Positions 2,273 through 47,992 of a stretch of DNA of 64,000 nt are shown here, one piece after another. Every line of letters begins with the position of its first letter. Position 1 is the first letter of the stretch. The notes beneath the pieces were generated by a model. The model made no database searches and was not told the origin of the DNA. It saw nothing but the letters and a program-made list of their open reading frames with translations. Source of the DNA: Quillaja saponaria. Taxonomy: Eukaryota; Streptophyta; Magnoliopsida; Fabales; Quillajaceae. The translations under genes and the position numbers were made by a program. Location of the stretch: the NCBI GenBank assembly GCA_029379385.1, contig CM055608.1, positions 17,668,350 through 17,732,349 on the forward strand, given 5' to 3'.

Positions 2273-2419
2273 CTAAGTGGTCAAGGTAGCACAGTAGTAC
2301 TTTAACCAAGCAGAAGCAGATTTAAGAATGCGAATTTCTCCACCGAGAAGATCCCGAGCCATTTGCATTCTAGTAGGAATGTTTTCACACATGGAAAGAG
2401 AATTGACAGGATCCAATGT
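2273..2419 (-). pseudogene. SET pseudogene exon 13 (terminal)
   Basis: After acceptor TGTGTACAG, 48 codons and a TAG (2275-2273) follow. It starts TLDPVNSLSMCENIPTRMQM and continues ARDLLGGEIRILKSASAWLK to YYCATLTT. The M-A-R-D-L-L-x-G-E block is the conserved C-terminal helix of the Rubis-subs-bind domain. The frame is intact. Intron 12 (2420-2676) is 257 bp and T-rich on the sense strand. Confidence 0.9.
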
Positions 2420-2676
2420 CTGTACACAAACACAAGCACAGATATCAAATATGAACTCAAGACAGGAAATCTTCTAGGTAACACCGTGCAGTATAACATC
2501 ATGGATTGGCTGAAGACTGCAGATCCATTTTCTTTCCGGAAAATAACGTAAGCCGTCTTGGATTGGTGAACATACCAAATCAGACTTGCTAACCCACATT
2601 TTACTGGTTTCAGTGTCTAATTTGTAAGGTGATTTAAGAATAAACTTCAAATAAGGTAACAATGCCAAGTCTTTAC

Positions 2677-2823
2677 CTTAATAACTTCACGCTCATCAAT
2701 TAATTGAGTGATTATTGATAACAACATCATATGTGCTTCAATCTCTTTGCTGATGTTATTTTAAAGGACGCTGCGCCGGCCTTCCATCATTTTGTGCAGC
2801 TTCTGTGGCCAAATTCTTGAGCT
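2677..2823 (-). pseudogene. SET pseudogene exon 12, frameshifted
   Basis: After acceptor TTTCCAG, it reads ELKNLATEAAQNDGRPAQRP then LK and a stop (TAA 2756-2758). One frame over, ISKEIEAHMMLLSIITQLID then EREVIK continues to donor ATTAAG|GTAAAG. AAQNDGR and E-I-E-A-H are Rubis-subs-bind signatures. The length between the phase-1 entry and phase-0 exit is off by one (or minus two), so an indel near 2755-2762 broke the frame. Confidence 0.88.
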
Positions 2824-2937
2824 CTGGAAATCCAATTATAATAAATAATGATGACGTATGCAATATCAGATATAGCTTATGTAAGACGTCTAAAAGTATT
2901 GTGCTGAACAAATAGAGTAACATGATATAAAGAAGAC

Positions 2938-3026
2938 CTTGAGGAGTGGTTCAGGAAAGAATTCGAGCAACTGCACGATGTGATTGGGGAATACCCTTCC
3001 CTTTTCCTGTACGAGATCTCACTTCC
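2938..3026 (-). pseudogene. SET pseudogene exon 11, with a premature stop
   Basis: The exon starts in the phase left by exon 10 and reads EVRSRTGKGKGIPQSHRAVA then R-I-L-S, TGA, T-T-P-Q, to donor CTCAAG|GTCTTC. GKGKGIPQS is a strong family signature in the linker to the Rubis-subs-bind domain. The TGA (2951-2953) stands where I expect a Cys codon, one base away. Intron 11 is 114 bp. Confidence 0.88.
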
Positions 3027-3389
3027 CTACGTGATTATTAGTTTACAGCTTTACTAGGAAAAAATAAACATTATGATGTGTCAGAAAATAAAAGATTGAC
3101 AAATTTTTTGACGAATATCACATGAAGGCATCGAGTAGGAAAGGGCATCAATGACATAAGGATACAGGCCAAAACACAAACGCAGTGTTGCAACTTAAAC
3201 TGAATTCAGCGTTTTAGTATAGGCGATGTATTAGCTGCAAAAACTACAACTAGTTACTGTGCTAGAAACCACAAGACCTTATTCTTGTTACTTTAAGTCC
3301 TTCTACTTATAAAAATCGCAAGACCTTATTCTTTCCAAAAAAAAAAATATGGTTCAAGTTCTATATATATATCTAGGGTTTAAAAAAAT

Positions 3390-3710
3390 CCACATAAGAG
3401 TTACGTCAAGAACATTTATGGTTCAAGTTCTACTACTAAGAACAATGCACATGAGCATGATGAGTTATTAGAAGAAGATGATGAAGGTTATAATTGTAAT
3501 AATAGTGATTGAGGTGATGTTGGTCCTACAAGTATTGATGAGGATGAGACAATGAGCAACTCATGAGTAGGAGGAAGAACTATTTTTTGAAAGATGCTTG
3601 CATTTGAATTTTACGTTTACTTTCATGTTTGAACTTGACTTTTGAAATGGCTCATTTGTTATTCTATAAGTTTTAAATGCTTCAAATATTTAATACAATG
3701 TTTTTTACGG

Positions 3711-3743
<33 letters not shown>

Positions 3744-4328: not shown

Positions 4329-7300
4329 CAAGGTTGTCAAGATCGAGATCTTAAGCAGGATCAACTCGTAAGATCGAATCGGTAGAATCGGAAAAACTTA
4401 CAAATTTTGTAAAATAGTTATTAGAGTATATTTTAATGTACATAATTTATTGTAAGTATGTGTATTTTGTTATAAACAAACACAATTTGTATATAGCTCC
4501 CACTATGTTTTTTATTCTAAAGCAAAATATTCAACAAATTCATCAATAAGATAAAATAACTACTCAAAGAGAGTACAAGTACAAACATAAAACATCCAAT
4601 ACGAACATCAAATTCATAACATTAATTTCATAAATCCAAATATAAGTTCATAAACAAAATATCCATACAAAGATTCTTAATACCACAAAATTAAAATCCT
4701 ATTTGCATTATTTAGTCTAAACCAAAATTAGTCCCTTCTTCATAAACATCACAATTATCTTCTTCATCATCACCACTTTCTCCATCATCATCCCCATCAT
4801 CATCTCCATTGCCAACATCATTGTCATCATTACCATCTTCATTGTCAATGGGGTTTCCACCATCATTGGCATTAGAAGAACCATCAAGAACACATAGCCA
4901 TTCATTTGATGAAGAATCTACAAGATCTTCTTTTAGAGTTATCCATTCATCATCTGAGGAGAGATCATCCAATTTCAAGCTCGAACTCGAATATTTTTTG
5001 GTTTGCCTTTCATTCAACTTGCAATTGTACATAACAAACACTAAGTCATTCATTTTCTTTTGATGCAAACGGTTCCTTTTCTTTGTATGCACCTAAAAAA
5101 GTAGTAAATTATTTATAAGAAATCAATACTAAAAACAAGAATTATAAAATCAAAATAATATATACTATCAACTTATATTTATCATCTCAAATGCGCTCCA
5201 ATTATGTTCGCATCCAAAAGAACTACAAGTCAGGCTTAAGATCTGAATGGAAAACCTTTGTAACTCATGGCATTCGTCTCCATAAGAATACCACCATTCA
5301 GCTGGAGTTTTTTTCTCCCTCATTGCCTTTGCAGCTAAGATTCCAAATAATCCTCTAGCATTTTTGAAATTTTCAAGTTGCAAATCAATTGTATTTCTCT
5401 CATTTGAATCTCAAACCAATCTCTCCAAGCAACTGTAAAGTCCACGTTTAACTTCAAAATCACCTTTGAAGTTAGGACTATAATAATATTGAGGATTTAA
5501 ATAGTAAGTTGTAGCATGCAAAGGCCTATGAAACTGCATCTCCCATCTCTCATCAATAATGTTTCAAATCGGCTCATACCTATAAAGGTTAATTAGAAAT
5601 TTAGGATTAGTTGACACAAAAAATAATATGAAAATATGTGAAGTTACTACTTACTAGTTTAAAAAAACAAAACCTAACCTCTTTTTAACGTTGCCAAAAT
5701 TCAATTGTATATTTTCTTTTGCCCGATCCATTTCTTCATAAATAAATCCCATAGTCGGTTTCCCTTCTGAATCCACTAACCTGAGCACCTTAATAAGAGG
5801 ATTAGCAACCTTAAGACATTCAACAACTTTCTTCCAAAACTCATTGTTTAGAATAGTTCTTGCAACTTTCTTTCCTTTTTCTGTGTTTGAAGAAATGCTT
5901 GCTTTCCACTTTTGAGAAGAAAACATTCTCTTCAATGTTGCTTTTAATTCAAGAAGACACCCCAAAGTCAAGTACGAAGTAGCAAACCGGGTCGCAGCAG
6001 GTCTAATTAAATCTCTCCCTTTGGTGAAACTCCTCAACATAGCAATGAGCATGTTTATTCCATAAATGTATTTAGTAATTCTCTTTCATTTTTCAATAGT
6101 CACAGAATGCATTTTTAATTTTTTTGCAAAATCCTCCAATATCAAATCAATGCAGTGTGTTGCACATGGTGTCCAATATAAGCTCTTTCTTTTTTCATCA
6201 ATATTTCACCAGCTACTTTGTAGTTTGCTAGATTATCAATAATCACCTTGCACCACATTCTGCTCCTTAAATCTTCTCCACAACATCATCTAACATCTCA
6301 AAAATTTTGACGGCAGTTTTAGAGAAGTTTGATGTCTCCACTAATGATAAAAATATAGTCCTTTTCGGACTATTAACCAAAAAATTGCATTTAGAAAGTC
6401 GTTTCCTATATGTCCAACCATCAGACATTAGAGAACATCTTGTTTTTTTCCATTCTAGTTTGTACTCCTCAAGAAGGCCCATAGTTTTACTTACTTCTAT
6501 CTTCAAGAATTTTTTTCTCAATTCATGATAAGAGGGACCTTTCATCAGCCCACAACCATACCTCCCAATTGCTTCTAATATTTCAGCAAATTTAGGATTT
6601 TTCACACAAGTAAAAGGGATAGCACTTATGTAAAAAAATTGAGCTATATTTGAACATGCTTCTTCTCGCAAATCCTTTATGACCCATTGATTCATTGTTG
6701 TTTGTGTTTTGTTGCTTCCAACCCCACTAGAATTTTGTACAAAATATCCCTTAATTTCTTTTCCTTTCCCTTTACTTGTTCGCACAATTTCTACATCTTC
6801 CATATCGCCATCACTATCTTCTAAAATTCTCCTTTTCTTCACTTTTTTCACTTCTAATTTATCTAAGACAACTCTCATTTTATTTTTCACATCATCCGAA
6901 ACACTCACACATGCTATTGTATCTTCTCCAGTGCTTGCAAGATGGTGCTTGAACCGAAAAATTCCACCCATTACAATCTTTGAACAATATTTGTATTTCA
7001 CTTTTCTCTTGTTTTCTTCTACTGGGATACTATATTCCCAACTCACATCAGTTCTACTTCCCGAAGCATTTTTTCTACTCTTAGAAGAACTAGAAGGAGG
7101 CATTTTCCTTTAAAACAAGAAGTCATCAACAAATCAAATGCACCATCATCAAATTAGCAACTAAGGAATAAATAATTTTATCCAATAAATCTAAATTTAA
7201 TAGCAAATCAAATTAGCAACCAGAAGGAGGCATTTTCCTTTAAATTTTGTTGCTGTTTGAAACTAAAAAACTGATTCTATTTATGGCACTTCAAAATTTC

Positions 7301-8274: not shown

Positions 8275-9209
8275 GTTATGACAAGAGACAATTCTGAAGA
8301 TGTATCTAAACTAAATAATCACCTTGCTAAAGAGTTTGAGAACAAGGACTTAGGAAACCTCTGGGAATTGAAGTAGCTCGGTTTGAAAAAAGGTATATTC
8401 TTATCTCAAAGGAAGTATGTCCTTGACCTGTTGAAGAAGATTGGTATGCTTGAGTGCAGGCCCACAAACACACCTATAGAAACTAATCACAAGTTGCAAA
8501 TTGGTGATAGGGAATGTGTTAATAAGAAGAGATACCAGAGATTGGTTAGGAAGCTAATTTATCTCTCACACTCATCCTGACATAGCCTATGTTGTCAGTG
8601 TGATTAGTCAGTTTACGCATGATCCTCGCTTTACTTATTTAGATGCAGTTTACCGTATACTGCAGTACTTGAAATCTACTCCTAATAAAGGACTTCTATT
8701 TGAAAATTGTAAAAGTCTAAAGATAGAAACTTATACAGATGCAAACTAAGCTAGATCTATTGATGATAGAAGGTTCACATCAGAATATTGGACCTTTGTT
8801 GGCCGGAATCTAGTCTCTTCGAGAAGTAAGAAGTAAGTTGTGGTTGTTAGATCCAATGCAGAAACAGAGTACAGAGTAATGACACATGAAACTGGTGTGT
8901 TATTACAGTTTAAAAAGCTAATGGAAGATCTACAACTATTTGTAAAAAAGCCACTATTACTATATTGTGACAACACTACAGTTATAACCATAGCCCACAA
9001 TCTAGTCCAACATGATAGAACAAAACACATTGAGATAGATAGGTATTTTATAAAGGAAAAGCTAGATACAATACAAATTTGTATACCTTTTGTAAGATCT
9101 AAACAACAATTAGCATATATCTTCATAAAAAGTCTTAGTAGTTGTAGTTTTCATTATATTCTTTACAAGATGGGCATGAAAGATATTTATGCTCCATCTT
9201 GAGAGGGAG

Positions 9210-9329
9210 TGTTGACTGTAAATATTGTGTACAAGGGTATAAAGGTACTTACTCTTCCAGGAGTGTATAAACTAGATTGTAATTGTGTGAATAATAAAAC
9301 AAGACATAACTTTTCCACAAAATTCAACT
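9210..9329 (+). repeat. 3' LTR of copia C (about 120 bp)
   Basis: It follows the polypurine tract directly, begins TGTTGACTGTAAATA, and ends near 9329 where sequence matching copia B begins. It shares the word order of the copia D LTR (TTGTAATTGT, then an A-rich AAAACAAGA segment). Confidence 0.7.
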
Positions 9330-10128
9330 CCAATTCTACTCTTACTTCCACTACTTTCATTCCCGAAGCTGACAACTTCCTTTGACATACTTAAGTAGAA
9401 GAAATCAGCAAAGGAAAAGCATCAAGATATCAATAAAAAAACCATAACCATAAAGGGCTCCTACACCTTACCAACCACACGATCAACAAAGTGCCTAACC
9501 CTCTCAGCAATACCTTCAAATCACTACCCAGAAGCTAGGAACACCTGCACAAACCAAACACTCAGCTAGCCTTCGAAAAAAAACACAACCCACAGCCAAA
9601 AACTTTTGAAGTTGTGAGCCACTTCTCCAAAAACACTTCCTCCCTTCAAATCAACCCTAGAGATCCCCTCCACTACCCTAATTGAAGCCAATAAGGGCCT
9701 ACAGTAAGAGAAATATGCTAAGAAAACCCTAGAGTCGAAGGATTTCAGAGTTAGGTTAAGAACAGAAAAATGCCAAATTAACCCTTGTAACAGCAGCAAA
9801 TGGGAAGGAAACTTTGGGGGGTTTTGTTCGCCTTCTCTAGGTGAATCAGCCGGTAGTTTCAAATCTAAAAAAGGTCTCGGGAAACGCTGCCATGCAAAAG
9901 GCCGCCAGACACTGCCGTGCACTGCAGTGCCAGCAGGGGTCAACGACGATGGTGGCGGCGATCAAGGTAGAGGTTAGGGTTTTTCACTTTGTAAGCTCTG
10001 ATACCTTGATGAGTTGTGTAGAATCAATGTATTTATTCAAATTCAAAAACATGTACAACCTAAGATATATATACTCTACAAAGGTTATTACCCAATATTA
10101 CTCCCTAAACATATACACATAGACAACA
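9330..10128 (-). mobile_element. copia fragment B (5' LTR, primer site, leader)
   Basis: The 5' LTR is 10007-10128 in minus orientation, starting TGTTGTCTATGTGTATATG and ending CTCATCA. A primer-binding site AGGTATCAGAGC (reverse complement at 9995-10006) follows, then a leader matching copia A (compare 9355-9990 with 20130-20800). The fragment stops at the start of gag near 9340, where it meets the 3' LTR of copia C in opposite orientation. GC content rises in the leader around 9890-9970. Confidence 0.8.
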
Positions 10129-15282: not shown

Positions 15283-15299
15283 AGTTCTGCTTCCCTTGC

Positions 15300-15403: not shown

Positions 15404-16111
15404 AGTTATGCTTCTCTTTTACTTTTGCTTTCATTATAATAATGCCTTATATTATTTGAATAAACTTACATTCAACAATGAAGAACCAAGCATCATTACT
15501 AACCTAATTGTAAATGAATCCTTAGCACATTTGTAGGCATTGGCATCTTTCGTAGTTAGCACAAAATGTCGCTACAAGAGCTCTATTTTCATGTCACGTA
15601 GCGGATCATGGTTAGTGATGGATTGTTGAATTAATATGTTCTATTCAAATTCAAAACATGTACATCCTATGATATTTACTATACAATAATTATTTCCCAA
15701 ACACCCTTATTACTCCTTAACATATACACATAGACAACACTCCCCCTCAAGATGGTGCATAAATATCTCTCATGCCCATCTTGCAAACTGTAGGATGAAA
15801 AACTACACTAATAAGTCCTTTTGTAAAGATATCGGCCAATTGGCTTTCAGATCTTACAAAAGGTATACAAATAAGACGAGAGTCTAGCTTCTCTTTAATG
15901 AAATGTCTATCAATTTCAATATGTTTGTACGGTCATACTAGACTGGGTTGTGTGCTATATTGATTGCAGCTGTGTTGTCACAATATAGAAAAAGAGGTTT
16001 TTCCCAAGATAATTTGAGATATTCTATCAACTTCTTAAGCCATAACAACTCACAAGTCCTGTGAGCCATCGCTCTGTATTCTGCTTCAACACTGGACCTA
16101 GCAACCACTGT

Positions 16112-17017
16112 CTACTTCTTACTTCTCCATGACACTAAGTTCACACTAAAAAATGTGCAATATCCTGAAGTATACCTCATATCATCAAGTGATCTAGCCC
16201 AATCTGCATCTGTATAGGCTTCTAACTTTAGGCTTCTATTATTTTCAAAGAGAAGTCTCTTCCCAGGTGCAGATTTCAGGTATAACAGTATACGATGAAC
16301 TATATCCAAATGGTCAGAACAAGGGTCATGCATAAACTGACTAACCACACTTACAGCATAGGCTATGTCTGGACAAGTATGAGATAGATAAATTAGTCTT
16401 CCAATCAGTCGTTGGTATCTCTCTCTATCAACATATTCTCCATCACCACTTTGTAACTTGTGGTTTGCCTCAATAGGTGTAGCAGTAAGCCTACATCCAA
16501 GCATACTTGTCTCATCTAACAAATCAAGAACATATTGTCTTTGAGATAGAAAGATACCCTTGTCTGAATCAGCAACTTCAAACCCAAGAAAGTAGCAAAG
16601 CTTCCCTAAGTCCTTGATTTTGAATTCCTTAGCAAGATGACTTTTCAACTTGGATATCTCTGCAGGATTATCTCTTGTCACTATTATATCATCAACATAG
16701 ACAATAAGAATAGTAATCTTCCCATGACAATGTTTTACAAACATGGTATGATTTGCAGGGCTCTATTGGTACCCAAAAGAAAGCATCGCTTTTCGAAATC
16801 TAACAAACCAGGCTCGGGGTGACTGTTTGAGGCAATACAAGGACTTCCTCAACTTGCATACCTTACTTTCAGTCTTTTGACATAAGAAGCCTGGGAGAAT
16901 CTCCATATAAACTTCCTCAATAAGATCTCCATGCAAGAAAGTATTCTTTACATCCAATTGCTGAAAGTCCCAACCAAGATTTATTGCACAAGAGATAAGA
17001 ACTCTAATAGAATTCAT
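16112..17017 (-). pseudogene. copia A reverse transcriptase
   Basis: Two open blocks in different frames cover the domain. The first (17017-16763) reads MNSIRVLISCAINLGW, QQLDVKNTFLHGDL and LKQSPRAWFVRFRKAMLSFG. The second (16744-16112) reads ILIVYVDDIIVT with an intact YVDD, then GIFLSQRQYVLDLLDE, LIGRLIYLSHTCPDIAYAVS and the first RNase H segment (AYTDADWARS). RNase H continues with breaks to about 15752. Confidence 0.88.
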
Positions 17018-17930
17018 CTTTGCAACAAGAGCAAAGGTTTTTTGATAATCAACTCCATAAGTTTGAGTGAATTCTCTTACAACAAGTCTCGCTTTGTATC
17101 TCTCAATTGTCCCATCAGCTTTCTTTTTAATGGTAAAGACCCATTTACAACCAACAGCTCATTTTCTATGAGGGAGACTAGCAAGTTCCCAAGTATCATT
17201 TTTGGATAACACTCTCATTTCTTCAACCATGACATTCTCCCATTTTTGGACAAGGATTTATATGAGACATGATTAGAGATAGGATGATGAGTACAAGTCC
17301 TAATGCTTTTCTAATTGCAATAAGAAGATTAGTATCATCAATGGCAGGAGAATCATAAGGTAAGTTTGAAGAAGGAATATCATTAGGAGACTTGCAAGGT
17401 TGTACCGGTGTGGAAGCTAGGTCTGGAGAGAACTCTTGGCTAGGTAAAGCAGGCTCGATGGCTGTATTTCTATGTTGTCTACGTCTATACTTAAGCAAAT
17501 CCAGCTTTTCCAACATCAGATGAGTCTCAGTATCCCTTATATGAGTCTAAGTATCCCTCACTTCTTCCTGTATACTCTCCTTGTTTATACTCTCATCCTG
17601 TTTTGCTTAATCTTCCTTTTCCTCTTTTATGTCCTCCATTAACAACTTAGGTAACTCAAGTAACCACTCCCCCTTACTTAAATGAGACAACTTTTCCTCG
17701 CTGTTACTTTCCCCCTGAAGAGGTGTCGAGGAGAAATAAGCATTACATTCATGAAAAGTGACATTCATAACATAAGTCTTCCTAGTATGAGGATGGTAGC
17801 ACTTGTATCACTTCTGAGCGGCAGAGTACCCAATAAATATACCTTTCAATGCTCGGTGATCAAGCTTACTGATGTTATTCCTGTGTTCATGAACAAAGCA
17901 AACACAACCAAATACTTTAGGAAGGACCAC

Positions 17931-18572
17931 CTAGAAACAATTATCTTGAAGAACATGTATAAGAGTTTTAAAATAAAGAGTCTGAAGAGGCATACGGTTA
18001 ATGAGATAAATTGCAGAGAGAACTGCATCTCCCCAATAAGCCTTAAAGACATTCATAGTAAACATTAGGGACTTTGCCACCTCTAAAAGATATCGATTTT
18101 TGAGCTCTGTTGTACCATTCTGAGCAGAGGTATCAACACAACTAATTTGATGCATTATGCCATGATCCCGAAGATAATTTTGAAAATTACCTTCTGTATA
18201 CTCTGTACCGTTATCACTTCTTAAAATCTTAACTTTAGCATCAAACTGTGTACAAATCAGCTTAGGGAACATCTGAAAACAACTGAACATTTCATTCTTA
18301 GCATGCAATAAGTACACCCAGGTAGTACGACTGAAGCAACCAATGAATGTAACAAACCACTTGTAACAAGATAAAGAAACAACATGACTGCGACGCCAAA
18401 CATCTGAATGAATAAAAGAAAAAAGAGCAGTACTTTTATTATTCATTAAAGGATAAGAGGCACGCTTATGTTTAGCAAATTCACAAGCATCACATAACAA
18501 ATTGTTCATAGTATAATGCTTAAATAAATTTGGAAACATATTTCCTAGAACCAAAAAAGAAGGATGTCCCAA
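17931..18572 (-). pseudogene. copia A integrase
   Basis: The block starts MGHPSFLVLGNMFPNLF and carries the CDACEFAKHKR end of the HHCC zinc-binding domain. The rve core follows: FIHSDVW (first Asp), RSDNGTEY (second Asp) and the QNGTTELKNRYLLEVAKS segment that bears the Glu. The N-terminal histidines lie just upstream, after a stop. The chain ends in RMPLQTLYFKT, the usual start of the integrase tail. Confidence 0.88.
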
Positions 18573-18636
18573 ACGGCGATGCTACTGAATCAACTGCTGC
18601 TGAGAAATAATAGAAGCACTACTCTGAAGGGACTGA

Positions 18637-19095
18637 CTAGAAGATAGTGTTTGCCAAAATACTAGGACCATATTCCAATAAGTATAGCTCATCTTGCTCT
18701 TTACCATAGCCAATCGTTCTACCTGTTCCTAGTTCCTGAAATTTACAACAACAAGAATCAAATATAGCTTGACAATTTAAGTCTTTAGTGATCGAGCTAA
18801 TTGATAAGAGATTCATGGAGAATTTAGGAACGTGAAGAATAGAAGACAATGTTAAGGTAAAAGTACACTGAACAGAACCTTTCCCAGAAATAGAGGACAA
18901 TGAGTCATTGGCAACCCTCACCTTGTCTTTACTAGAGCAATGAAAATAAGTAGAAAATTTTCTAGAAGTACCAGTCATATGGTCAGAAGCTCCTGAATCA
19001 ATGATCCAAGACTCTGAATCTATTGTGGAATGAGTGCCAAGGGTATGATGAGAAGATGTAGTTGAAGTGGAAAGACAACAATCAAGTTTTGCCAT
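18637..19095 (-). pseudogene. copia A protease and gag-pre-integrase region
   Basis: The block holds WIIDSGASDHMTG, the aspartic-protease active-site motif (Asp in DSGA) of copia elements. It is followed by the conserved ILHVPKFSMNLLS segment and the GTGRTIGYGKEQDELYLLE start of the gag-pre-integrase domain. The reading frame is open for 152 residues and ends before the HHCC part, which continues at 18572. Confidence 0.88.
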
Positions 19096-19127
19096 CAGAC
19101 GCCGAAGATGTTACATTTCTTCAGGAT

Positions 19128-20217
19128 TCAGTGCATTTGATTTTGTAGAAGATGATGACTCAATAGTTTCTGAGAAATGACCTCATGATCTAGGTCGTTC
19201 AACAACCCTACCACCTCTGCCTCTAGTTGGACAACCATGTAGCTTCTAACATGTATCTCTGGTATGGCAGGTCTTACCACAATAATCACACTGCAAGTCA
19301 TCCTTATCATGACCCCTTGTAATCTCACTTCCTCTGGTATGGCAGGTCTTACCACAATAATCACACTGCAAGTCATCCTTATCATGACCCCTTGTAATCT
19401 CACTTCCTCTGGTATGCACTCCTATAGATTCTTTCGAAATAGGAGTTGTAAACATTGCAGACCTCTCGTGGGCTCCTACATTAAGCATAGTTGTCATCCT
19501 GCTTTCTTTTTACTGCACATAAGCATATATCTGTCTCAAGTTTGGAAATAGATCTCTTCCTAAAACCTGAACCATAATTTGATCATACTCAAGATTAAGT
19601 CCAGCCAAAAAATCATACACTCTCTCCTTATCCACCACCTTTTGGTAAGAAGCTACATCCTCATGACATACTGGTTAAAATTCTTGATAGTAATCCAATT
19701 ATTGCTGTAGACTACTCAATTCAGCAAAATATTGAGCAATAATCATTTCCCCCTGCTTAGTCTCGTGAAGCTTCCTCTTAAGTTCAAAAACTTGAAGATC
19801 ATTTCCAGCCTGAGAATAAGTTTAGGACATAGCTGTCCACATCTTACATGCAGAGTCAAGGAGCAAATAACTACGAGAGATTTGTGGTTGCATAGAGTTA
19901 ATCAACCATGACATTACCAAGGAGTTTTCAGAAATCCACAACTCCAACAATGGATCTTCTCCCGCTCGTTTTGTTTTCTTACCGGTAATATAACTAGACA
20001 ACCCACGTGACTGAATAAACAATAGGCAAGAACGAGACCAAGCCAAGAAATTGTTGCCATCAAGCTTTACAGAACTAGTTTGGAGGGAGGGATTATCGTT
20101 AGGGATTCCAACCCTACTCCCCTTCCTACTACTTCCATTCCCGAAGCTGACAACTTCCTCTAACATTCTTACATAAAGCAAGCAGCAAAGAACAAAAAAA
20201 CACAAAAATATCAACAA
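19128..20217 (-). pseudogene. copia A gag, with a duplicated zinc knuckle
   Basis: Gag begins near 20160 (MLEEVVSFGNGSSRKGSR) and continues KLDGNNFLAWSRSCLLFIQS, LWISENSLVMSWLINSM and YFAELSSL, the typical UBN2-type copia gag. Several stops split it. Near the C-terminus the zinc knuckle CDYCGKTCHTRDTC is preceded by an in-frame 25-codon copy whose final Cys is lost (CDYCGKTCHTRGSE). The two 75-bp units are identical (19261-19335 and 19336-19410). Confidence 0.85.
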
Positions 20218-20947
20218 CAGAGAAGGCTCCTACACCTTACCACCCACACAATCAAAAAACCACCTAACCCTCTAAGTAATCCATTGAAGCCACAACCCTG
20301 TAGCCAGAAACTCGGAACCTGTAGCCTAATACTCGTGAATTTCAGCCAGAAAATTTCAGAGCATCAAACTAGCCTTTCAAGATTGCAACAGGAGGATTCA
20401 ACCAGCCTTCGAAAAAACCCCAACCCGCAGCCAACAATTTTCGCCCGTGAGCTACTTCTCCAAAAACACTTCCTCCCTTCAAATCAGCCTTAGAGATCCC
20501 CTCCACTACCTAATCAAAGCCAATAGAGGCTTGCAGTAAGAGAAATCTGCTGAAAAACACTCAGAATCGAAGGATTTCTGAGTTAGGTCACGAACAGAAC
20601 ATGGCCAAATTAACCTCTGAAACAGCAACAAATGGGAACGAAATTTTAGGGGTTTTATTCTCCTCTTCGAGGCGAACTAGATGGTGATTTCAAAGCTGAA
20701 AAATGTCGCCGGAAACTGCCTTACACAGCAGCAGCCGCGGCAACGATCAAGGGCAGCAAAGGCGGCGATCAACGACTGAGGTTAGGTTTTCTTCACTTTG
20801 CGAGCTTTGATAACATGATGGATTGTTGAATTAATATATTCTATTCAAATTCAAAACATGTACATCCTAGGATATATACTATACAAGGATTATTACCCAA
20901 ACATATACACATAGACCACAGTTAAGTATATGAACCTGGATCTGAAC

Positions 20948-22243: not shown

Positions 22244-22327
22244 CTGGTCATAAGTGTTGCACAGAAGTGTAAACCCGAAATCCAACATCAGGTTAGCATT
22301 TGAAAATTTTCCATATCTTATCAGTAC
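22244..22327 (-). pseudogene. SET pseudogene exon 9 (end of SET domain)
   Basis: An 84-nt, 28-codon exon lies between acceptor ACATTTTTTAG and donor GACCAG|GTATTT. It reads VLIRYGKFSNANLMLDFGFT and ends YDQ. The Y-G-K-x-S-N-A and L-D-F-G-F blocks are the post-catalytic end of the SET domain. Phase is 0 at both ends and the frame is intact. The number assumes one missing exon (8) upstream. Confidence 0.9.
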
Positions 22328-25504: not shown

Positions 25505-26800
25505 TCTTTGACCATGAGTCATCAAGGCCAATCATTGAATGTTTCTTTATCAGTAGTCGATTTTGATGACTTTTTACAGTACCAGGCTACCAAGCAATCT
25601 TCATTAGCTCCTCCTAATAATTTTCCTTAGCTCCTTATGGTAATTTTGTCGCATGCCTCTCTCAACACACATCATCCAAAAATTAGGTACTTGATTCCAG
25701 TTCATCTGATCATATCTTTGATAACCCTAAACTTTTCTCTCATATTACTAATAATTCTTCATACTTAAGGAGTCTAGAGCAATTACCAAAGGCATAGGTC
25801 AGGCTTCACTATTGTCATCTTTACCTTTAGACTTTGTACTCTTTATTCTTGAATGCCCTTTCAGCTTAATATATGTTAATAAATTAACCCGTTCTCTTAA
25901 TTGCTCCATTCTATTTATTGATGATTCCTTTGTTATAGAAGATTGAGGTACGAGACAACCAATTGGCACCAGGCATGAATCTCAAGATCTTTATCAACTT
26001 ATAACATCAATAACCTGCTCTACAAATATTCTCCTCTTATCATTCACAATCGCTTGGGTTATTCGAGTCTCTCCAAACTCCATAAGATGGTTCCTCACTT
26101 ATCTTCTTTGTCATCCTTAGACTGTGAGTCATGTCAACTTAGCAAGCACACATGCCACATTTTCAAAGCATAGTTGTTTTAAAGTAGTCTCCCTTTCACC
26201 TTGTTCACAGTGATATTTGGGGACCTAATCATGTCAAGTAGTACATTAGGTTATCAATATTTTATTATATTTATTAATGATTATTCTCATTGTACTTGAT
26301 TATTTTTAATAAAAAATTATTCATAGTTAATTTTCATTTTTCAACAATTTTATATTGAAATTCAAACTCAATTTAGGTGTCTATTTGCATTTTACGAAGT
26401 GATAATGCTCGCAAATATTTTTCTACATCCTTTCAAAATTTTATGACATCATAAGATATGCTCCATCAATACTCGTGCGCTCATACTTGAAACAAGATAT
26501 GCTATTTTTTTTTAAAATGAATGAGAGATATTTATGCCCGAGAGGGAATGTTGAATGCAAAAACGGTACATGGGTAAACACACATTTTGGGTATATATTC
26601 TTGGTTGTAATAATTTGTAGGATATACGAGAAACATAATTTCTCATTGCAAACAGCTTCCAAGAAACATTTGAAGACAAATGGAAGAATATGAGAGAAGG
26701 AAAGAGGGAGAGAGGGAGAGAGAGAGAGAGACAACTTCTGAACATTGTTTGTCTTCATCATTCAATACAATTGCTTCCAAAGTCTCGTCGTGATTTTAGA
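25505..26800 (+). mobile_element. copia remnant K (family F-like body, short 3' end)
   Basis: 25505-26450 matches the gag/protease/integrase region of the element at 41281-42389 (for example FVACLSQT and the HDNAR-like segment). It then jumps to a copia 3' end, GAGAGATATTTATGCCCGAGAGGGAA (26525-26548), followed by an LTR start TGTTGAATGCAAAAACGG at 26549. Integrase end, reverse transcriptase and RNase H are missing. A GA-rich microsatellite lies in the LTR (26706-26732). The LTR's right end was not fixed. Confidence 0.6.
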
Positions 26801-27816
26801 AGACTGCGAATGGAATCTATAAAAGAGTGTTACAAATTTAAACAGATACAATTAGATAGACAATGAAAGGCATCCTTAAAATAGAAATACCAAAGATAAT
26901 CCCTTCGCGCTTCCCCATTCTCGAGAACTAACTCATAGGTTCAATTGAAATTTGTTAGATAAGATAACAAATTTTCAATTTCCACAACCAATGTAACAAA
27001 GATAAACAGATAATTGATTTGAATAATTACTTCAACAAATAAGGCTTGTAAACATTGTATCAAAAGGACAAGTCTTAAAAAATTTCTTAATTAAAAAAAT
27101 AAAACAGTATGGATGTTTCAACAGAGATAAGATATGCCACAGCAGAGAATGATCTGCTCACAGTCCTCAACAAAAATACAAGAATGTTATCAAAGATAAC
27201 AACAGCTCCAACATGAACATATTGTTATATTAGCTGTTATTAAGTTGTTCTTTCTATAGTAAAAGGTGCAGCGAAACCTCGAGTCAAATGAAAAAACAAA
27301 AAATCAAACTTCTCTAAGTCTTACAAGTATACCACACAATAACAATGATAACAATGCCAGTAAGTAATAGATTAATATATCTAGGAAAGACGAACATTCT
27401 GGATTTTTCCACATTGAAACCATTAGATCAATTTGAAATAGGATCCACTCAAACAATAAATGAAAAAGAGAAATAAAATTTTAGGAATCTATCATAAGAA
27501 TGAGAAATACAGATATATGAATACGTGATATCAACAAATATTGAGCATCTAACAATGACATCTTATATCAGCAGAGTAAGATCCTCATCAATAAATTAAA
27601 CATGTTACAAAATTTTCAATTATTTTGGCACAGGTTTATGATTGACCAAATATCTCTAGCTGACATGTATAACATAAAAGACAAATTATGAAACTGTACA
27701 GGTACAAATTAGCCTCCACAAATCAGAGGCAACAGAGACTAAATTGACAAGCCTCTTTTTAGAAGAACTAGTTGTAAAGCACGCATTTCAAAAGGCATAC
27801 ACTTGAAGTTGCTTAC
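26801..27816. other. unassigned intron sequence between exons 7 and 9
   Basis: AT-rich sequence. I searched it on the minus strand for the missing SET-core exon (GSRAW and NHD-like motifs) and did not find it. Confidence 0.45.
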
Positions 27817-27886
27817 CTACCGTACATGAATGCATAAAATCCTCAAATGTGAAACTTCCAAAAGTTTTGGGAAAATATTCAAAAAC
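27817..27886 (-). pseudogene. SET pseudogene exon 7
   Basis: After acceptor ATTTCAG, it reads VFEYFPKTFGSFTFEDFMHS and CTV, then G split by the donor GTAG|GTAAGC in phase 1. The F-E-D-F-M-H block leads in the family to a GSRAW motif in the next exon. That exon was not found. The frame of this exon is intact. Confidence 0.88.
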
Positions 27887-28528: not shown

Positions 28529-28636
28529 TTGCCTAACGGCCAAAAAATCCTTTTCAATTTGGGACCTTTGATTGTTAGTTTTCAGATATACTGAGCTTGG
28601 ACGAATCATCTCCAATTCACTTTGGCTCCAAAATAT
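28529..28636 (-). pseudogene. SET pseudogene exon 6
   Basis: The exon is 36 codons between acceptor CTTTCTAG and donor GGCAA|GTGAGT, phase 0 at both ends. It starts IFWSQSELEMIRPSSVY and ends QIEKDFLAVRQ. The F-W-S-x-x-E-L-x-x-I-R block is characteristic of the insert of the Rubisco-methyltransferase type of SET protein. The reading frame is intact. Confidence 0.88.
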
Positions 28637-29226: not shown

Positions 29227-29383
29227 ATTTTCTGGATAGAGAAATAAGTTTTATTAAGGCAACAGAATAAGTACAGGAAGCAAAGGATAATGAATCATTC
29301 TAATCAGAAGAAGTGGAACAAAAAATAGACAAAGATGAACAAGAAGCTAACAAAATACAGCTCTGTTGATCCCTTAGTACATT

Positions 29384-39819: not shown

Positions 39820-39885
39820 CTTATTATTTAGCTCTCCCAGCTGAGGAAAACAGCTGATGTAAGGAGCCCATTCACATTCTTGCAT
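39820..39885 (-). pseudogene. SET pseudogene exon 5, with a GC splice donor
   Basis: The exon reads QECEWAPYISCFPQLGELNN then K, matching the conserved W-A-P-Y-I-S segment. The donor is AAG|GCAAGT, a textbook GC-AG donor. The acceptor side is poor: the sequence before the conserved codons is TTTTTCCTGTCATGCAA, with no AG in the right phase, so the acceptor may have mutated. Intron 4 is about 155 bp. Intron 5 is about 11.2 kb and holds copia D and copia G. Confidence 0.8.
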
Positions 39886-40039
39886 GACAGGAAAAAACTA
39901 AATGAGCAAATGACTTTAGTTACTTGGAATTTGTTTAAAAGTCAGATTGGGCTATACAGTGCATAAGGCTATAGGAAATACTATTAAGTTCAGAACTACT
40001 TCTCATAAAAACAAAAATGGATAAGAAGGTTATCTGAAC

Positions 40040-40145
40040 CATTTTCTGCTCAGCCAGAACTAAAAGTGCCAATTTCGCCGATGTTTCCAACTTCATCACC
40101 TAGTAAGGATCTGATTTCTGCAAGGAGATTGTCAGGAGTTATTTG
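40040..40145 (-). pseudogene. SET pseudogene exon 4, with a one-base frameshift
   Basis: After the acceptor TGCAG, it reads QITPDNLLAEIRSLLGDEVG and N-I, then leaves frame. In the next frame AKLALLVLAEQKM continues to the donor AAAATG|GTTCAG. The exon is 106 nt where 105 (35 codons) would keep frame, so one G near 40078-40079 is extra. Without the shift the exon matches the family. As it stands, translation would stop at TGA soon afterwards. Confidence 0.85.
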
Positions 40146-40260
40146 CTGCAGTCAAGAAAGGACGATATTAACTTTAACTTGACATGGTCACAGAGTGAAA
40201 TTCATATCAGAAAGCTTTGACAAAGTTCAGCAATGTATATTGTACCACATTATAAGGAAC

Positions 40261-40309
40261 CTTCAAAATGCTTTCTCCAGCTTGTATAGTCTTGGAAGCA
40301 TATAAACAC
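40261..40309 (-). pseudogene. SET pseudogene exon 3
   Basis: The 49-nt exon lies between acceptor GCATGCAG and donor GAAG|GTTCCT. Its first G completes the Arg codon from exon 2, then CLYASKTIQAGESILK follows. The A-S-K-x-I-x-A-G-E-x-I-L block is the early SET strand that contacts the cofactor in this family (family knowledge). It ends in phase 0, matching exon 4. The upstream intron 2 is 7.4 kb and holds the composite LTR element. Confidence 0.85.
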
Positions 40310-40704: not shown

Positions 40705-40984
40705 CTTTTTTATTAGAGAATAGATTTATTAAGAGAGAAGGAAATTACAAGGATCGAGGACAAGAAAGCCTCCTAATAATACATCAAAGAGGAAAATAAC
40801 ACAAAGAGAAGCGAGCTGAAACAAAATGGAGTCTATCAGAGATACACCGTAAAAAGCACCTGCTGCAAAGCACCAAGGAGATGCCAAAAAGCATAGTACA
40901 GCGAATGACAGCCCAACACTCTGTTTCATAAAGCATAGCACGGCATATGACTGTTTCATAAAATTTACCGTTTAGCTTTGAAGG
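40705..40984. other. possible LINE 3' end (minus strand)
   Basis: The TTTTTTATTAGAGAATAGATTTATTAAGAGAG word, followed by CCTCCTAATAATACATCAAAG-like sequence, resembles the 3' UTR of plant L1 LINEs read from the minus strand. No ORF supports it. The composite LTR element starts at 40985. Confidence 0.35.
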
Positions 40985-41280
40985 TATTAGGAATATAATA
41001 TTATTATATTGTGTAGTCCTACATTGTTTAGATGTGAAAGTCTATGTTCTATTATTTACTATAAATAAAGCTTATGGGTGTAGGCTTTGAAATATCAATC
41101 AATGCCACAATCTTTTCCTTATTCTATTTTATTTAACATGGTATCAGAGCTTAGAAAGAAAAAAAAAAAAAACCCTAATTTTTATTTTCCGCTGTGTTTC
41201 TTTCCAGCGTGTCTCTCTATTGCTGCGTTTCATTCCAACAGTACGATTATTGTTCATCGGGGTATTGTTTATCAGTATGT

Positions 41281-42389
41281 CTACCTCTGAAAAATCTAAA
41301 ATCGGTATGTCAAAACCTAGTACTTTTACCTCTGTGTTTTCTAGATCCCCTGTTATTACTACAGCTAACATTGTTCAATCAGCCAATTCACTTGAAGTTT
41401 CACCATCTAAAGACAAGCCTATTAATGTCTCATTATCAGCTACTGAATATGATAAGTTCCTACAATATCAAGCTACCCAGCAATTTTCTCATAGTAATTT
41501 TGTCGCTTGCCTCTCTCAAACCCCTTCTGACACTTGGATTCTTGATTCTGGTACCTCTGATCACATATCTGGTAATCCCAAACTTTTTTCTAGTATTAGT
41601 AATCCATCATCACTTTCCACTATTACTATAGCTAATGGCTCCATAACCATTGCTAAAGGTATAGGCCAAGCTAAACCATTATCTTCTTTGCCTTTAGAAT
41701 CTGTGTTTTATGTCCCTGAATATTCATTCAGTCTGATTTCTATTAGTCAATTGACTCGTTCTCTCAATTGTTCTGTCACTTTTATTGATGATTTTTTTAC
41801 TATACAGGACCGACGTACGGGACGAACGATTGGCACAAGGCATGAGTCACATGGCCTCTACCATCTTACCACACTACCTACATCTTCAGTGACTTGCTCT
41901 ATAGATGTATCACCTATTCTCATTCACAGTCGATTGAGTCATCCTAGTCTATCTAAGCTTCAAAAAATGGTTCCTCGTTTGTCATCTCTGTCATCTTTAA
42001 ATTGTGAATCGTGTCAGCTTGGCAAGCACACACGTGCTCCGTTTCCAAAGCATAGTCGTTTTAGAGCAGAGTCTCCCTTTCATCTTGTTTATACTGATGT
42101 TTGGGGTCCTAGTCGTGTTAGTTCATCTTTGGAATTTCAGTATTTCGTAACCTTTATTGATGACTATTCTCGTTGCACGTGGTTATTTTTAATGAAAAAT
42201 CGTTCTGAGTTATTTTCTATATTCCAACAGTTTTGTGCTGAAATTAAAACACAATTTGGTGTTTCTATTCGTATTTTGCATAGTGATAATGCACGTGAAT
42301 ATTTTTCTACATCATTTCAACACTTTATGACATCTCAAGGTATGCTGCATCAATCATCTTGTTCTCACACCCCTCAACAAAATTGTTGA
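41281..42389 (+). pseudogene. copia F gag end, protease and integrase
   Basis: A long open block starts MSTSEKSKIGMSKPST and soon reaches the protease motif WILDSGTSDHISG. Most of gag, including any zinc knuckle, is missing. It continues with VFYVPEYSFSLISISQL, the pre-integrase HSRLSHPSLSKLQKM, CESCQLGKHTRAPFP, and integrase YTDVWGPS (first Asp) and LHSDNAREYF (second Asp). It stops at TPQQNC, where a small deletion removes the Gly codon before VERKNRNLIETART, so the segment bearing the Glu continues in the next frame (42390-42600). Confidence 0.9.
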
Positions 42390-43002
42390 GCGCAAAAACA
42401 GAAATTTAATTGAAACAGCTCGCACTTTATTACTTCATGGTCATGTTCCACTTCGGTTTTGGGATGATGCTGTACTTACTGCATGCTACCTTATTAATCG
42501 CATGCCATCTTCTACATTGCATAATAAAATTCCATATTCTATCATCTTTCCTGATCATCCCTTATAATCACTTCCGCTTCGTATCTTTGGTTGCATTTGT
42601 TTTGTTCATGATCTAACACCTGGACAGGATAAACTCTCTTCCAAATCATTTAAGTGCATATTCTTGGGTTATTCTCGTCTTTAAAAAGGGTATAAATGTT
42701 ACTGTCCAGATAAGAATCGTTACTTTATCTCCGCTGATGTTACATTTTTTGAGGAATCTTCATTCTTTTCCTCGACTATTCCCGAGTCACCTTCTATCTC
42801 TGAGGCTCTTCCGGTTCCTTATCTTGGACCAAATGACTATGTATCATCTGCACCACTACCTGATCTTCCAGAAGACATTGTTGATGTATCTGATGACTCA
42901 CCTTCTGTCCCAACACCTTCCCGTGCCTCGGATCCTGCTTCACCACCTATTTTATGCAGAGATACTCGTTCAACTCGTAATCCTTATCCTATTTATACTT
43001 TT

Positions 43003-43932
43003 TTGAGTTATCATCGTTTATCTTCACCCTATTATGCATTTGTCTCCTCTTTGTCTTCTATTTCTATTCCAAAGTCCACCAGTGATGTTCTTGCTCATCC
43101 CGAATGGCGGCAAGCCATGATTGATGAAATGAACGCCTTATATACTAATGGTACTTGGGAACTGGTCTCTTTACCTTCTAAAAAATCCACTATTGGCTGT
43201 AAATGGGTATACACCGTAAAAGTTCATCCTGATGGTTCTATTGATCGCTTAAAGGCTAGATTGGTAGCAAAAGGCTACACTCAGGTCTATGGTGTGAATT
43301 ATTCAAAAACTTTCTCTCCCGTGGCTAAAATTACATCTGTCAGGGTATTTATATCTCTAGCTGCTATTTTTGATTGGCCACTCAATCAATTGGACATCAA
43401 AAATGCTTTCTTACATGGTGACCTTGATGAAGAAGTCTTTATGGAGCAACCACCTGGTTTTGTTGCTCAGGGGGAGTCCGGTATGGTGTGTCGATTGAAA
43501 AAGTTTCTATATGGCTTAAAACAATCTCCTAGAGCTTGGTTTAGTAGATTCAGTGAATTTGTTCTTAGTTTTGGCCTTCAGAGGTGTACTGTTGATCACT
43601 CAGTTTTCTATAAACATACACCTAATGGCAGAATTCTTTTAATTGTATATGTGGATGATATTGTGATTACAGGTGATAATAATCATGGGATTCAGCAATT
43701 GAAATCATTCCTACAGTCTGAGTTTCAAACTAAAGACATAGGACAGCTAAAATACTTCTTGGGCATTGAGGTTGCAAGATCACAATTGGGTATTTGCCTT
43801 TCTCAAAGAAAGTATTGTCTAGATGTCTTGAGTGATATAGGTATGTTGGATTCCAAACCTGTAGATACTCCTATGGAACCCAAAACTAAACTTGTACCAG
43901 ATGAGGGGGAGCTACTGACTAATCCTGAGTAA
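43003..43932 (+). pseudogene. copia F reverse transcriptase
   Basis: A 309-residue open block begins MSYHRLSSPYYAFVSSLS. RVT_2 motifs are complete: HPEWRQAMIDEMNAL, IGCKWVYTVKVHPDGSIDRL, KARLVAKGYTQ, LDIKNAFLHGDLDEEV, YGLKQSPRAWF and LLIVYVDDIVITGDN with an intact YVDD. It ends in a TAA in place of the Q/E codon before YRHLVGKLNYLT. It is the best preserved polymerase in the window. Confidence 0.92.
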
Positions 43933-44658
43933 TATAGACATCTTGTTGGTAAGCTGAATTATCTCACAGTCACTAGACCAGATATTGCTTTTGCAACTAG
44001 TATGGTTAGCCAATTTCTTTCTCAGCCTCGAACATCTCATTGGAATGCTGTTGTTCGTATCCTACGATACCTTAAAACTGCATCCGGAAAGGGATTATTA
44101 TATAAGAATCATGGGCACACTCTAGTTTGAGGACATGGTCATGGTCATACATTAGTCCATAAACATATTTCTACTCCAGTTCAAGATTATAGCGATGCTG
44201 ATTGGGCAGGCTCTCAATTTGACAAAAGATCTACTACAAGATATTGTATATTTCTGAGTGGAAATCTTGTTTCATGGAAAAATAAAAAGCAGACTGTTGT
44301 TGCAAGATCCAGTGTTGAATCTGAATATAGGGTCATGACTCATACCACTGCTGAGTTAGTTTAGCTGAAAAATCTATTAGACGAACTTGGATTTCAGCAC
44401 TCACAGCCTATGGAGTTAGTATTTGATAATCAAGCTGCATTACATATTGCATCAAATCCAGTCTTTCATGAACGAACAAAACATATAGAAGTTGACTGTC
44501 ATTTCGTTCGTGAGAAGCTTATGGATAATACAATCAAGACTACATATGCAAAATCAGAATATCAGTTAGCAGACTTATTCACAAAATCTTTGACAGGAAA
44601 CCGATTGCGATATCTATGCAACAAGCTTGGAACATATAATCTTTATGCTCCAGCTTGA
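43933..44658 (+). pseudogene. copia F RNase H
   Basis: It continues the reverse transcriptase with RHLVGKLNYLTVTRPDIAFA, DYSDADWAGSQFDKRSTTRY, VVARSSVESEYRVM and VFDNQAALHIASN, ending KLGTYNLYAPA and TGA. These carry the RNase H acidic residues (Asp in DADW, Glu in SSVESEY, Asp in FDNQAA). Two in-frame stops and a small imperfect duplication (HGHTLV, then GHGHGHTLVHKH, near 44110-44170) break it. Confidence 0.88.
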
Positions 44659-44665
44659 GGGGGAG

Positions 44666-44889
44666 TGTTAGAGTGTAAATATAGGCAGCTTAATTAGTGG
44701 GTCAAATTTCCTTATTTATAGTTTCCTTCCTTATTTATAGTTTCCTTATTTCTGTGTAATTTATATTACGTATTTGGTTCATATTTAGTCTAAGTTCACT
44801 ATGGTAGGTTAAATACTTTAGCCTATAAATAAAGGCTCCTTCTTGTATATTAAAAATCATCTTAATATACATTCTTCTTATATTCAACA
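44666..44889 (+). repeat. internal LTR of family F (224 bp)
   Basis: It starts TGTTAGAGTGTAAATATAGG directly after a polypurine tract and ends CTTCTTATATTCAACA directly before a primer-binding site. Inside is a duplicated word, CCTTATTTATAGTTTCCTT, and a TATAAATAAAGG box. It has no similarity to the outer LTRs apart from the ends. No second copy lies in the window. Confidence 0.88.
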
Positions 44890-45610
44890 TGGTATTAGAG
44901 CGGGTTTGAAACCCAAGCCCGATCTTGGCCCGATTTTGAAAAGAACCCTAATCTTCTTTTTCTTTTATCTAGCCGCCACATGAAGAAAAAAAAGAATAAA
45001 AAAAAAAAAAGCTTTGCAACCAGCTATCATTAAGCCTAGTTATTTCTTCCATTCAAGCCTCATTATTTCTTTTCTATCCCTAATTATCTCTTTCATCTAA
45101 AAGACGGCTCACTCCCCTTTTCTTTTCAAGCCTATTTAGGGTTTGACGGCTCAAAAAATTTGACAGTTCAATAGTACCTTCATGAACTTCCCGTTGTGTC
45201 TCTTTCCAGCGGTGCTCTTTTTATTTTTCTGAAAAATCCCGTTGTGCATTTTTCCAACGGTGCTCTTTTTATTTTTTCGAAAAATCCGGCTGTGTCTTTT
45301 TTCAGCCAACACGAGTACTATTCATGGGTACCAATATGTTCATCAAACGGATTGAAGCTTCACCTAGATTGTTGTAAGTAAAGAGGAGTGTAGAGATTGG
45401 TAATTGAGTTTTATTTGTACAAGAATGAGCATTATATGCTCCATCTTGAGGGGGAGTATTAGGAATATAATATTATTATTTTGTGTAGTCCCACATTGTT
45501 TAGATGTAGAAGTCTATGTTTTATTATTTACTATAAATAAAGCTTATGGGTGTAGGTTTTGAGATATCAATCAAGGCCACAATCCTTTCCTTATTCTATT
45601 TTATTTAATA

Positions 45611-47668
45611 GAATGTATCCTACAATCACACAAAACTCACAAAGCGTTTCCCCATTTCAGCCAATTAGATCTAACACTGAAACATCATATTCCATTTCTC
45701 CATCATGTTGATATTATATTTGATACAAGATACTTAAAGTACTCGCTAGAATCTCTTGACCATCGATGCTAACTAAGCAAGCAATCCTCTTTCTACCTTG
45801 CGAAACCTACATTTCATATAGAGTTCTACTAAATCTAAAGCTTCTAGATGTCACCATAGTTTTAGATTAGCGTTGAGCCCTATCTTGGTTTTACACTATA
45901 TCATCCACTTTCCTTTAAACCACATCTTTAGCTTGGAAAAGAGTGACTTTCAGGCTTCTAGTATAAAATATTAGAGTTTCTAACTTCTATCCACACCACT
46001 AGCAAGACAGTAGCCACTCAGAAGATGGAAATTCTGGCAATTCATGAACATAAAGTCCAAATGAGTAAACAGTTCTCCAACCTGCTTGAACTATTGTATC
46101 TTATTACCTTTAAGTCAAAGAGGATCCACTGATAAGTCAATTATCGATGTTCTAAAATTCATGCAAGATATTAAATCTTAAGTAGCATATTTGATCCCAA
46201 CGGCCCCCTGAGAAGTATGAAGAGTCTCATCTTCATACAACTAGTTCTAATTTTTATATGAATTTACTCTTATCATTCTAAAATTGTGAATTTTCAGGCA
46301 ACAATACTTAAACTATCTATATGTATTGAGTGAAGAGAATAATTTCGGGTGTTTCAATAATTAAAATGAGAAGATTTAGTAACCCACAGATCAATGAAAT
46401 TGCGATTTTGCATGTGCCAAAAGAGGCCCCATGTGTCATGGATTTTTCTTAACAGAGATGAACTCATCCATGAAAACCAAAACATGTGGCAGCTGATTTT
46501 TATATCTCGAAACATCTTATGACATTTTCAGGGGAAGTGCTTTAGTCGAGATATTTGAACTTAATTTCTTAAATCTTTTTCGGATTTCTGCTATATAAAT
46601 CTAAAAACAACAAACAAAAAAACTTACATTTTCTTTAACACTATTATCATGATCACCAGAACACCTCTAAGAACAAATCCATTGACCCAAGTCTGTAAAT
46701 GTTTAAAGAACCTTCTTCTAATTCCATGTTTTATCATGCCTCTAATTTCATTACATCTACCACATGCATATCCAATAATTTACTAGAAATCTTTCATCTG
46801 CTAGAAGTTGCGATGCAATTTTGGTTTTCATAATAGTGCAAAGAATCAAAAGACGACTCGATATAACTCCTTCAAGAATTTTCTGTGGGTTTCAATTCAG
46901 CTGCAAATAAACATTGGAACTATCTTAGTAATAGATATTTCCATTTAAATTATCTATGTTTGCCCTTGTATATAGGATATTATACATATACAATTTATTT
47001 ATTTCATGCTGTTCAGAATTCTAGTATCAATTTCGGTAGCCATCTTGATAACTTATAAGTTATCAGTTATCATTACACTCAAAAGGCCCATTGTAAAATT
47101 GACTATCTGCCACACTACAATATGCAAGCAAAACCAAAGTGATACTGCAAATCAGTCACTCTGTACCATTAAATCACAGAAAGTGTATTTCCATATTCTG
47201 ATCATACCAGCTCTTGATCAACCAGCCCAGCTAACCAGCCCTTTATAACTACTTCACAACTTTAAACAGTTAGATTGCATTGATGATCCTTACAACTTAA
47301 GTTCCTATTTCCTAGTAAGTGAGACGATGAGTGTCATAACAAGATTTCAGGAGCAAAAAATTAGTTGTGATATGGAATTATGGATTACAATTTGAACTGA
47401 TCATGAGAATGGATTTTAAAATAATAATAAGAAATATTTAAAAAATCAGCACTGTAAGCTTTTTTCTTTAATTTTTTTAATTTAAAAATAATTACAATCA
47501 AGATATTAGTCAGCTGAATATTTCAACTTTAAATTAGAAAGTTAGCGGGGTAATTTAAACTTCACAAGATTTATTGAAACTAAAGCCCTTACACTGAAAC
47601 ATAATGAAGTGGAATTGCAATGGTGATAAGATACTAGTGAGCTTCAAAACTAAGATATGCATAGAAAC
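45611..47668. other. intron 2, unassigned part
   Basis: AT-rich sequence between the composite element and exon 2. I found no exon, terminal repeat or coding block in it. Confidence 0.4.
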
Positions 47669-47773
47669 CTGCCATGTGCGGATTTCCCAATTGAAAGCAC
47701 TGACGAAATCCCAACACCAGCTTTCCGTTCTAACCATGGCAAAAAATCATCACAATCCTCGTCGTTTAGACAC
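47669..47773 (-). pseudogene. SET pseudogene exon 2, with a one-base frameshift
   Basis: After the acceptor CTCAG, the exon reads as the acidic stretch DEDCDD followed by FLPWLERKAGV and IGKSAHG, the usual start of the SET fold in this family. Donor GGCAG|GTTTCT leaves phase 2, which joins exon 3 as Arg (GKSAHG-R). Exon 1 ends in phase 0, but the conserved frame here needs one base fewer near 47765-47767, where AAA should be AA. With one A removed the junction would read V-S-N-D-E-D. Confidence 0.85.
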
Positions 47774-47881
47774 CTGAGACAAAAATGCTAAAATAGTTCA
47801 AACTGTAACCTCACTGTTGGGGTGCTGAGAGAAAGAAGGAAAATTGGATTTGTTTAGCAAAGCAAATGTGTTACAGTTAAC

Positions 47882-47992
47882 CTGGGCCACCAATAAGGAA
47901 GATAAGTTGAACTGAATGAACAAACTGTGAGGGGTGCTGAAAAGGGGATGTAGAGGCCACCAGAGGTGTGTGGTGCGAGCTACTAGTAACAT
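47882..47992 (-). pseudogene. SET pseudogene exon 1 (start codon)
   Basis: This exon has 37 codons from ATG (47992-47990) to a donor CAG|GTTAAC, ending in phase 0. The N-terminus is MLLVARTTHLWWPLHPLF, rich in hydrophobic, Ser and Thr residues and nearly free of acidic ones, so it could be an organelle transit peptide (inference). I chose the ATG because the only in-frame codon further upstream in the same open frame is a TTG. Intron 1 is 108 bp and ends TTTTTGTCTCAG. Confidence 0.7.

Follow-up and report, generated by a model that had tools for sequence, protein, structure and literature searches.

The Arabidopsis member of the plant SET/Rubisco-LSMT-like methyltransferase type considered here is presumably AT3G55080. 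One published table lists AT3G55080.1 as AT-SETC2 (PMC4822149). At1g14030 is the aldolase enzyme, and At3g55080 is absent from the SET rows in the passage of the plastid table in the same source (PMC3991674). Unitary pseudogenes are defined as unprocessed pseudogenes that keep their introns and have no functioning counterpart (PMC5187791). Here, we describe a 64,000-nucleotide stretch of the Quillaja saponaria genome (the window; C4:17668350-17732349, in an assembly of 351,790,203 bases and 213 contigs) whose minus strand, from 47992 to 2273, carries colinear exon blocks of a single SET/Rubisco-LSMT-like methyltransferase gene. An intact SUVH1-like frame of 663 amino acids in this genome is 100% identical to a Q. 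saponaria protein, the other matches listed reaching 70% at most, which agrees with this source species (Quillajaceae, Fabales). Most of the methyltransferase protein is recognizable from the ATG to the stop. The locus is very probably the Q. saponaria orthologue of this gene and a unitary pseudogene.

Fourteen exons were placed (1a, 1b, and 2 to 13), which form 15 pieces of 22 to 147 nucleotides and total 1,356 exonic bases (Table 1). The gene starts with an ATG at 47992, ends with a natural TAG finishing at 2273, and has introns of 74 to 12,477 bp. The exons were first located with a rough plant-family consensus probe, and the chain scores and decoys were obtained with real proteins; motif regular expressions applied to the window recovered only three true gene pieces. 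The joined exons, with X placed at the lesions (the read-through), matched 464 homologues at an E value of ≤0.001. Among the best 120 of the 464, the top match was Fagus crenata P0001 (581 bits and 64% identity, with the entire query covered), many legume and Fagales proteins were the next nearest, and the named homologues were from flowering plants. When seven of these 120 (P0001, P0002, P0003, P0007, P0008, P0011, and P0013) were mapped back onto the window, each gave a single colinear chain of 12 to 14 blocks on the minus strand, covering 387 to 451 amino acids and scoring 500 to 591 bits. In contrast, 100 shuffled proteins (20 each from five of the seven) reached a maximum of 126 bits, with a mean of 57, and five reversed proteins scored 62 to 103 bits. 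Rfam gave no matches in the window at gathering scores.

A first-pass annotation, made from the sequence, had proposed one decaying gene of the Rubisco-methyltransferase/SETD3-like family across this span, with twelve exons of 49 to 147 nucleotides joined by matching phases and splice sites and separated by up to 12.5 kb of transposons. The protein alignments, with homology far above the decoys, bear out the single colinear gene, its exact bounds, its family, and the length of its longest intron, and the lesions described below agree with its pseudogene status; the number of exons and their lower size limit had to be revised. The phases agree from exon 1b to exon 13, given two one-base shifts (in exons 3 and 12) and starts of exons 4 and 7 that were set by homology. 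Exons 1a and 1b are out of phase unless a weak alternative donor near 47892 is used or one further shift is assumed, and the outgoing phase of exon 8 is uncheckable because its 3′ end is missing. We infer the division of exon 1 into 1a and 1b, the junction of which is unsettled; the N-terminal stretch in 1a may be transit-peptide-like. The splice sites are mostly canonical, apart from the donor of exon 3, the acceptor and donor of exon 4, and the acceptor of exon 7.

The alternative that survives best is a duplicated pseudogene, in which an intact paralogue works elsewhere and this copy was spare. Duplicated pseudogenes make up the majority of those in plants, and an assembly of 213 contigs could miss a copy. 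The intact paralogue that the first-pass annotation had suggested looking for was, however, not found with either of two queries. A genome search with the read-through returned 14 matches, 13 of them in the window, none with an E value above 3.4e-4; the remaining match, on C6, had an E value of 0.25. The intact Fagus protein returned 11 matches, of which eight lay in the window at 45 to 73% identity (five with E values below 0.001 and three at 0.002 to 0.02) and three lay outside it at E values of 0.07 to 0.19 and 25 to 29% identity. Thus, no second copy was found in this one 352-Mb assembly, even by the query that recovered eight pieces of the decayed gene. As a control, a search with the Rubis-subs-bind profile and the same tool gave seven matches, on C10, C8, C4 (7.06 Mb), C3, and C6, and the assembly therefore contains other members of the wider family. 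No Quillaja protein occurred among the best 120 of the 464 homologues, several of whose names end before the species. After the two genome searches we set the duplicate-gene reading aside as improbable. The simplest reading would be that the assembly holds no intact copy. Since no intact paralogue was found, a unitary pseudogene is the most likely status of the locus, in preference to a redundant duplicate: it is unprocessed, it retains its introns, and this assembly yielded no functioning counterpart.

A second alternative is that the gene still works, its very large introns being filled with transposons, and that the apparent lesions are assembly errors or are spliced around. Most splice sites are canonical, most of the protein can still be read, and the root-to-tip length in the tree described below lies within the range of intact rows, all of which favor such a gene. 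Against this, we counted 11 lesions of five kinds in seven exons (3, 4, 7, 8, 10, 11, and 12), comprising four in-frame stops (exons 8, 10, 11, and 12), two one-base shifts, three noncanonical splice dinucleotides (exon 3 donor, exon 4 acceptor, and exon 7 acceptor), one lost exon end, and one insertion in an exon. The GC donor of exon 4 is of a type that may be tolerated. The SET region is interrupted both by the stop in exon 8, which lies just before what we take to be the SET NH motif, and by the missing end of that exon; a search of the minus strand from 26760 to 22300 did not find the approximately 10 residues that come next in the homologues. Exon 9 presumably carries the SET YG motif. 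Conservation was assessed with 95 of the 120 listed proteins (445 to 510 amino acids; 25 were left out). The read-through is changed in 3 of the 46 columns that are invariant in the intact homologues (6.5%, against an intact maximum of 4.2%) and in 17 of the 134 columns conserved in at least 90% (12.7%, against a maximum of 11.1%), so that in leave-one-out comparisons its share of lost conserved columns exceeds that of every one of the 95. With a transposon also sitting in the coding sequence, the frame is disabled in several respects, and we consider a working gene very unlikely.

The insertion in exon 10 is a Copia element of 5,305 bp. Its long terminal repeats (LTRs), of 105 and 124 bases, are identical at 98 of 105 aligned bases and differ by one 19-base gap, and it is flanked by a near-identical 5-bp target duplication in which one of the five bases differs. 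Read in order, the minus-strand frames encode Copia gag, Pol_BBD, gag_pre-integrase together with integrase, and, in two frames, RVT_2, so that the element has the LTRs, the short target duplication, and the gag-integrase-reverse transcriptase order of a Copia (Ty1) element. The same homologous stretch ends with VQIQVHI before the element and resumes with NHDPLRD after it; therefore, the transposon entered coding sequence. The introns do carry transposons, as the first-pass annotation had it, but the idea that transposons are confined to the spaces between exons is ruled out by this insertion, which had gone unreported. A second Copia element, with Pol_BBD, gag_pre-integrs, rve, and RVT_2 domains, occupies the intron between exons 1b and 2, further Copia remnants occur in other introns of the gene, and an intronic DUF659 frame (6270-7109) is, we assume, hAT-like. 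In a self-comparison, 20,397 of the 45,720 bases of the gene span (45%) were repeated elsewhere in the window, a count that overlooks elements without a second copy in the window and includes a few local duplications. That unrelated SET fragments were captured by transposons, which can carry gene fragments, and came to be ordered by chance is scarcely credible. The pieces are in order on a shared strand, they cover nearly all of one protein between its ATG and its stop, their phases fit across most introns, and all 15 of them overlap the window's dispersed repeats by 0 bases.

In a rapidly computed 30-row tree, built without bootstrap from 29 of the 120 listed proteins, hand-chosen for named species, plus the window row, the read-through was sister to eight legume proteins with a Shimodaira-Hasegawa-like approximate likelihood ratio test support of 95, and three Fagales rows fell outside. 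Quillajaceae has been described as the closest non-legume family (PMC13224818), so that a position beside the legumes is the one expected of an orthologue in a Fabales plant and argues against an ancient paralogue.

Divergence was estimated as substitutions per site per lineage, with broad intervals. The LTRs of the exon 10 element gave 0.035 (0.013 to 0.069) and the intron 1 element 0.031 (0.013 to 0.056). The stops gave 0.058 (0.012 to 0.17), from three stops, the TAA next to the shift in exon 12 being excluded, and the splice sites gave 0.065 (0.013 to 0.19), from three changes in 23 sites, a set that excludes the junction of 1a with 1b and the missing donor of exon 8 and treats the GC donor as intact. 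The LTR, stop, and splice estimates overlap and do not resolve the order of events. The decay was probably late, at roughly the age of the Copia insertions, and the exon 10 insertion may or may not have been its first lesion. We propose that selection on the gene ceased, that LTR retrotransposons, probably along with a hAT-like element, would have built up in the introns, and that the exon 10 insertion, together with or near in time to the point lesions, would have ended any full-length product. A bolder version, in which the entire Quillaja lineage lost a long-kept methyltransferase through the exon 10 insertion, leaving a natural knock-out datable by its LTRs, is possible, but we regard it as doubtful.

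Several observations weigh against an orthologous unitary pseudogene. The Pfam SET domain was not recognized in the read-through at E values up to 0.1, although Fagus P0001 does score it (29.2 bits), and PF09273 (Rubis-subs-bind) reached 17.7 bits, under its cutoff of 21.6. Genome scans with PF00856 (31 matches) and PF09273 (7 matches) placed no match within the window. With the Pfam profiles silent there, the family assignment rests on the full-length, colinear homology to intact members that the seven homologues gave. The genome search scores best candidates only, its control relied on a profile instead of a protein query, and some sequence may be missing from the assembly. The pseudogene status is read from genomic sequence, in which base-level assembly errors could mimic point lesions but hardly the Copia insertion. 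Finally, the window row, at 0.989, falls inside the spread of root-to-tip lengths seen for the intact rows. Most of its divergence would therefore be older than the decay, and the gene was presumably under constraint for most of its history.

Table 1. Exons and Copia elements of the Quillaja methyltransferase locus (window coordinates)
Feature	Position	Strand	Evidence and remarks
Exon 1a, ATG and N-terminal stretch	47882..47992	-	tblastn to P0007, 42% over 33 amino acids; donor gt
Exon 1b	47669..47773	-	81% over 37 amino acids to P0007, alignment passing the exon end by a few codons; ag/gt
Exon 2	40246..40309	-	Probe and homologue alignment
Exon 3	40034..40145	-	One-base shift between 40083 and 40078 (homologues need two frames); donor AT
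Exon 4	39820..39879	-	Acceptor AA, donor GC; homologue alignment
Exon 5	28529..28636	-	Homologue alignment
Exon 6	27821..27886	-	Homologue alignment
Exon 7	26891..26932	-	Acceptor GA; homologue alignment
Exon 8	26730..26816	-	Stop TAA 26798-26796; 3′ end and donor replaced by CT microsatellite
Exon 9	22244..22327	-	Homologue alignment
Exon 10, first piece, upstream of Copia insertion	20926..20947	-	Acceptor ag; VQIQVHI
Copia element within exon 10	15616..20920	-	LTRs 20920-20816 and 15739-15616; flanks TTAAC 20925-20921, CTAAC 15615-15611
Exon 10, second piece	15504..15615	-	Stop TAG 15574-15572; NHDPLRD
Exon 11	2938..3026	-	Stop TGA 2953-2951; homologue alignment
Exon 12	2677..2823	-	TAA 2758-2756; one-base shift within 2761-2752
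Exon 13 and natural stop TAG	2273..2419	-	64% over 50 amino acids to P0007
Second Copia element, intron 1b-2	40984..45608	+	LTR-like ends 40984-41136 and 45456-45608 (144/153 identical); exact ends unsettled

Other repeats were also detected in and around the gene. Two Copia fragments in intron 10-11 (8279-10128) resemble portions of the exon 10 element at approximately 74 to 75%: 8279-9217 matches 15732-16680 inverted, and 9329-10128 matches 20107-20920, including an LTR, in the same orientation. They are perhaps a rearranged or doubled insertion. Intron 4-5 contains a 213-base direct repeat (29286-29498 and 30576-30788; 97% identical and 1,290 bases apart), at which no matching short flanking duplication was seen. 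Upstream of the gene, an RVT_3 (reverse transcriptase-like) frame at 49590-50006 is probably a retroelement fragment. Two LTR-like copies at 59568-60462 (86% alike) have relatives in the LTR-like ends of the Copia element in intron 1. A tandem pair of 147 bp lies at 60466-60757. About 10 to 30 kb beyond the window, long open frames on opposite strands (L032, 95-4286, minus; L033, 6608-9999, plus) share a common start, QTGVKSFAGQFSDFIAGVPIKKRRFPLIRPSS. L032 has three frames of 301 to 613 amino acids and L033 has frames of up to 932 amino acids; three of these frames matched no Pfam family at an E value of 0.01, and they perhaps represent a duplicated host gene.

At base level, the locus records that one tree has lost a methyltransferase gene found in many other flowering plants. 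None of the papers listed by a search on Quillaja and pseudogenes concerned this gene, judged by title or abstract start. A natural null could aid the search for the substrate of the enzyme, as any mark that the enzyme makes should be absent in Quillaja. It also illustrates that an entire dead gene can lie in a transposon-rich window and escape domain scans, as it did here with PF00856 and PF09273.

Compared with known systems, the Quillaja locus shares full-length homology with the AT3G55080 (AT-SETC2) type but differs in having no intact frame and a SET domain that Pfam does not score. The Rubisco LSMT and LSMT-like aldolase methyltransferases (pea 1MLV and At1g14030) are related in sequence but distant, with P0001 scoring 68 bits against pea LSMT (1mlv_A) and 73 to 77 bits against SETD3. 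Database entries of the homologues are named “Rubisco” or “aldolase” methyltransferase, names that were probably borrowed from this distant relative. As a probable unitary pseudogene, the locus is the same in kind as others in plants, a clear but ordinary gene loss, to which it adds an insertion within an exon whose LTRs can be compared.

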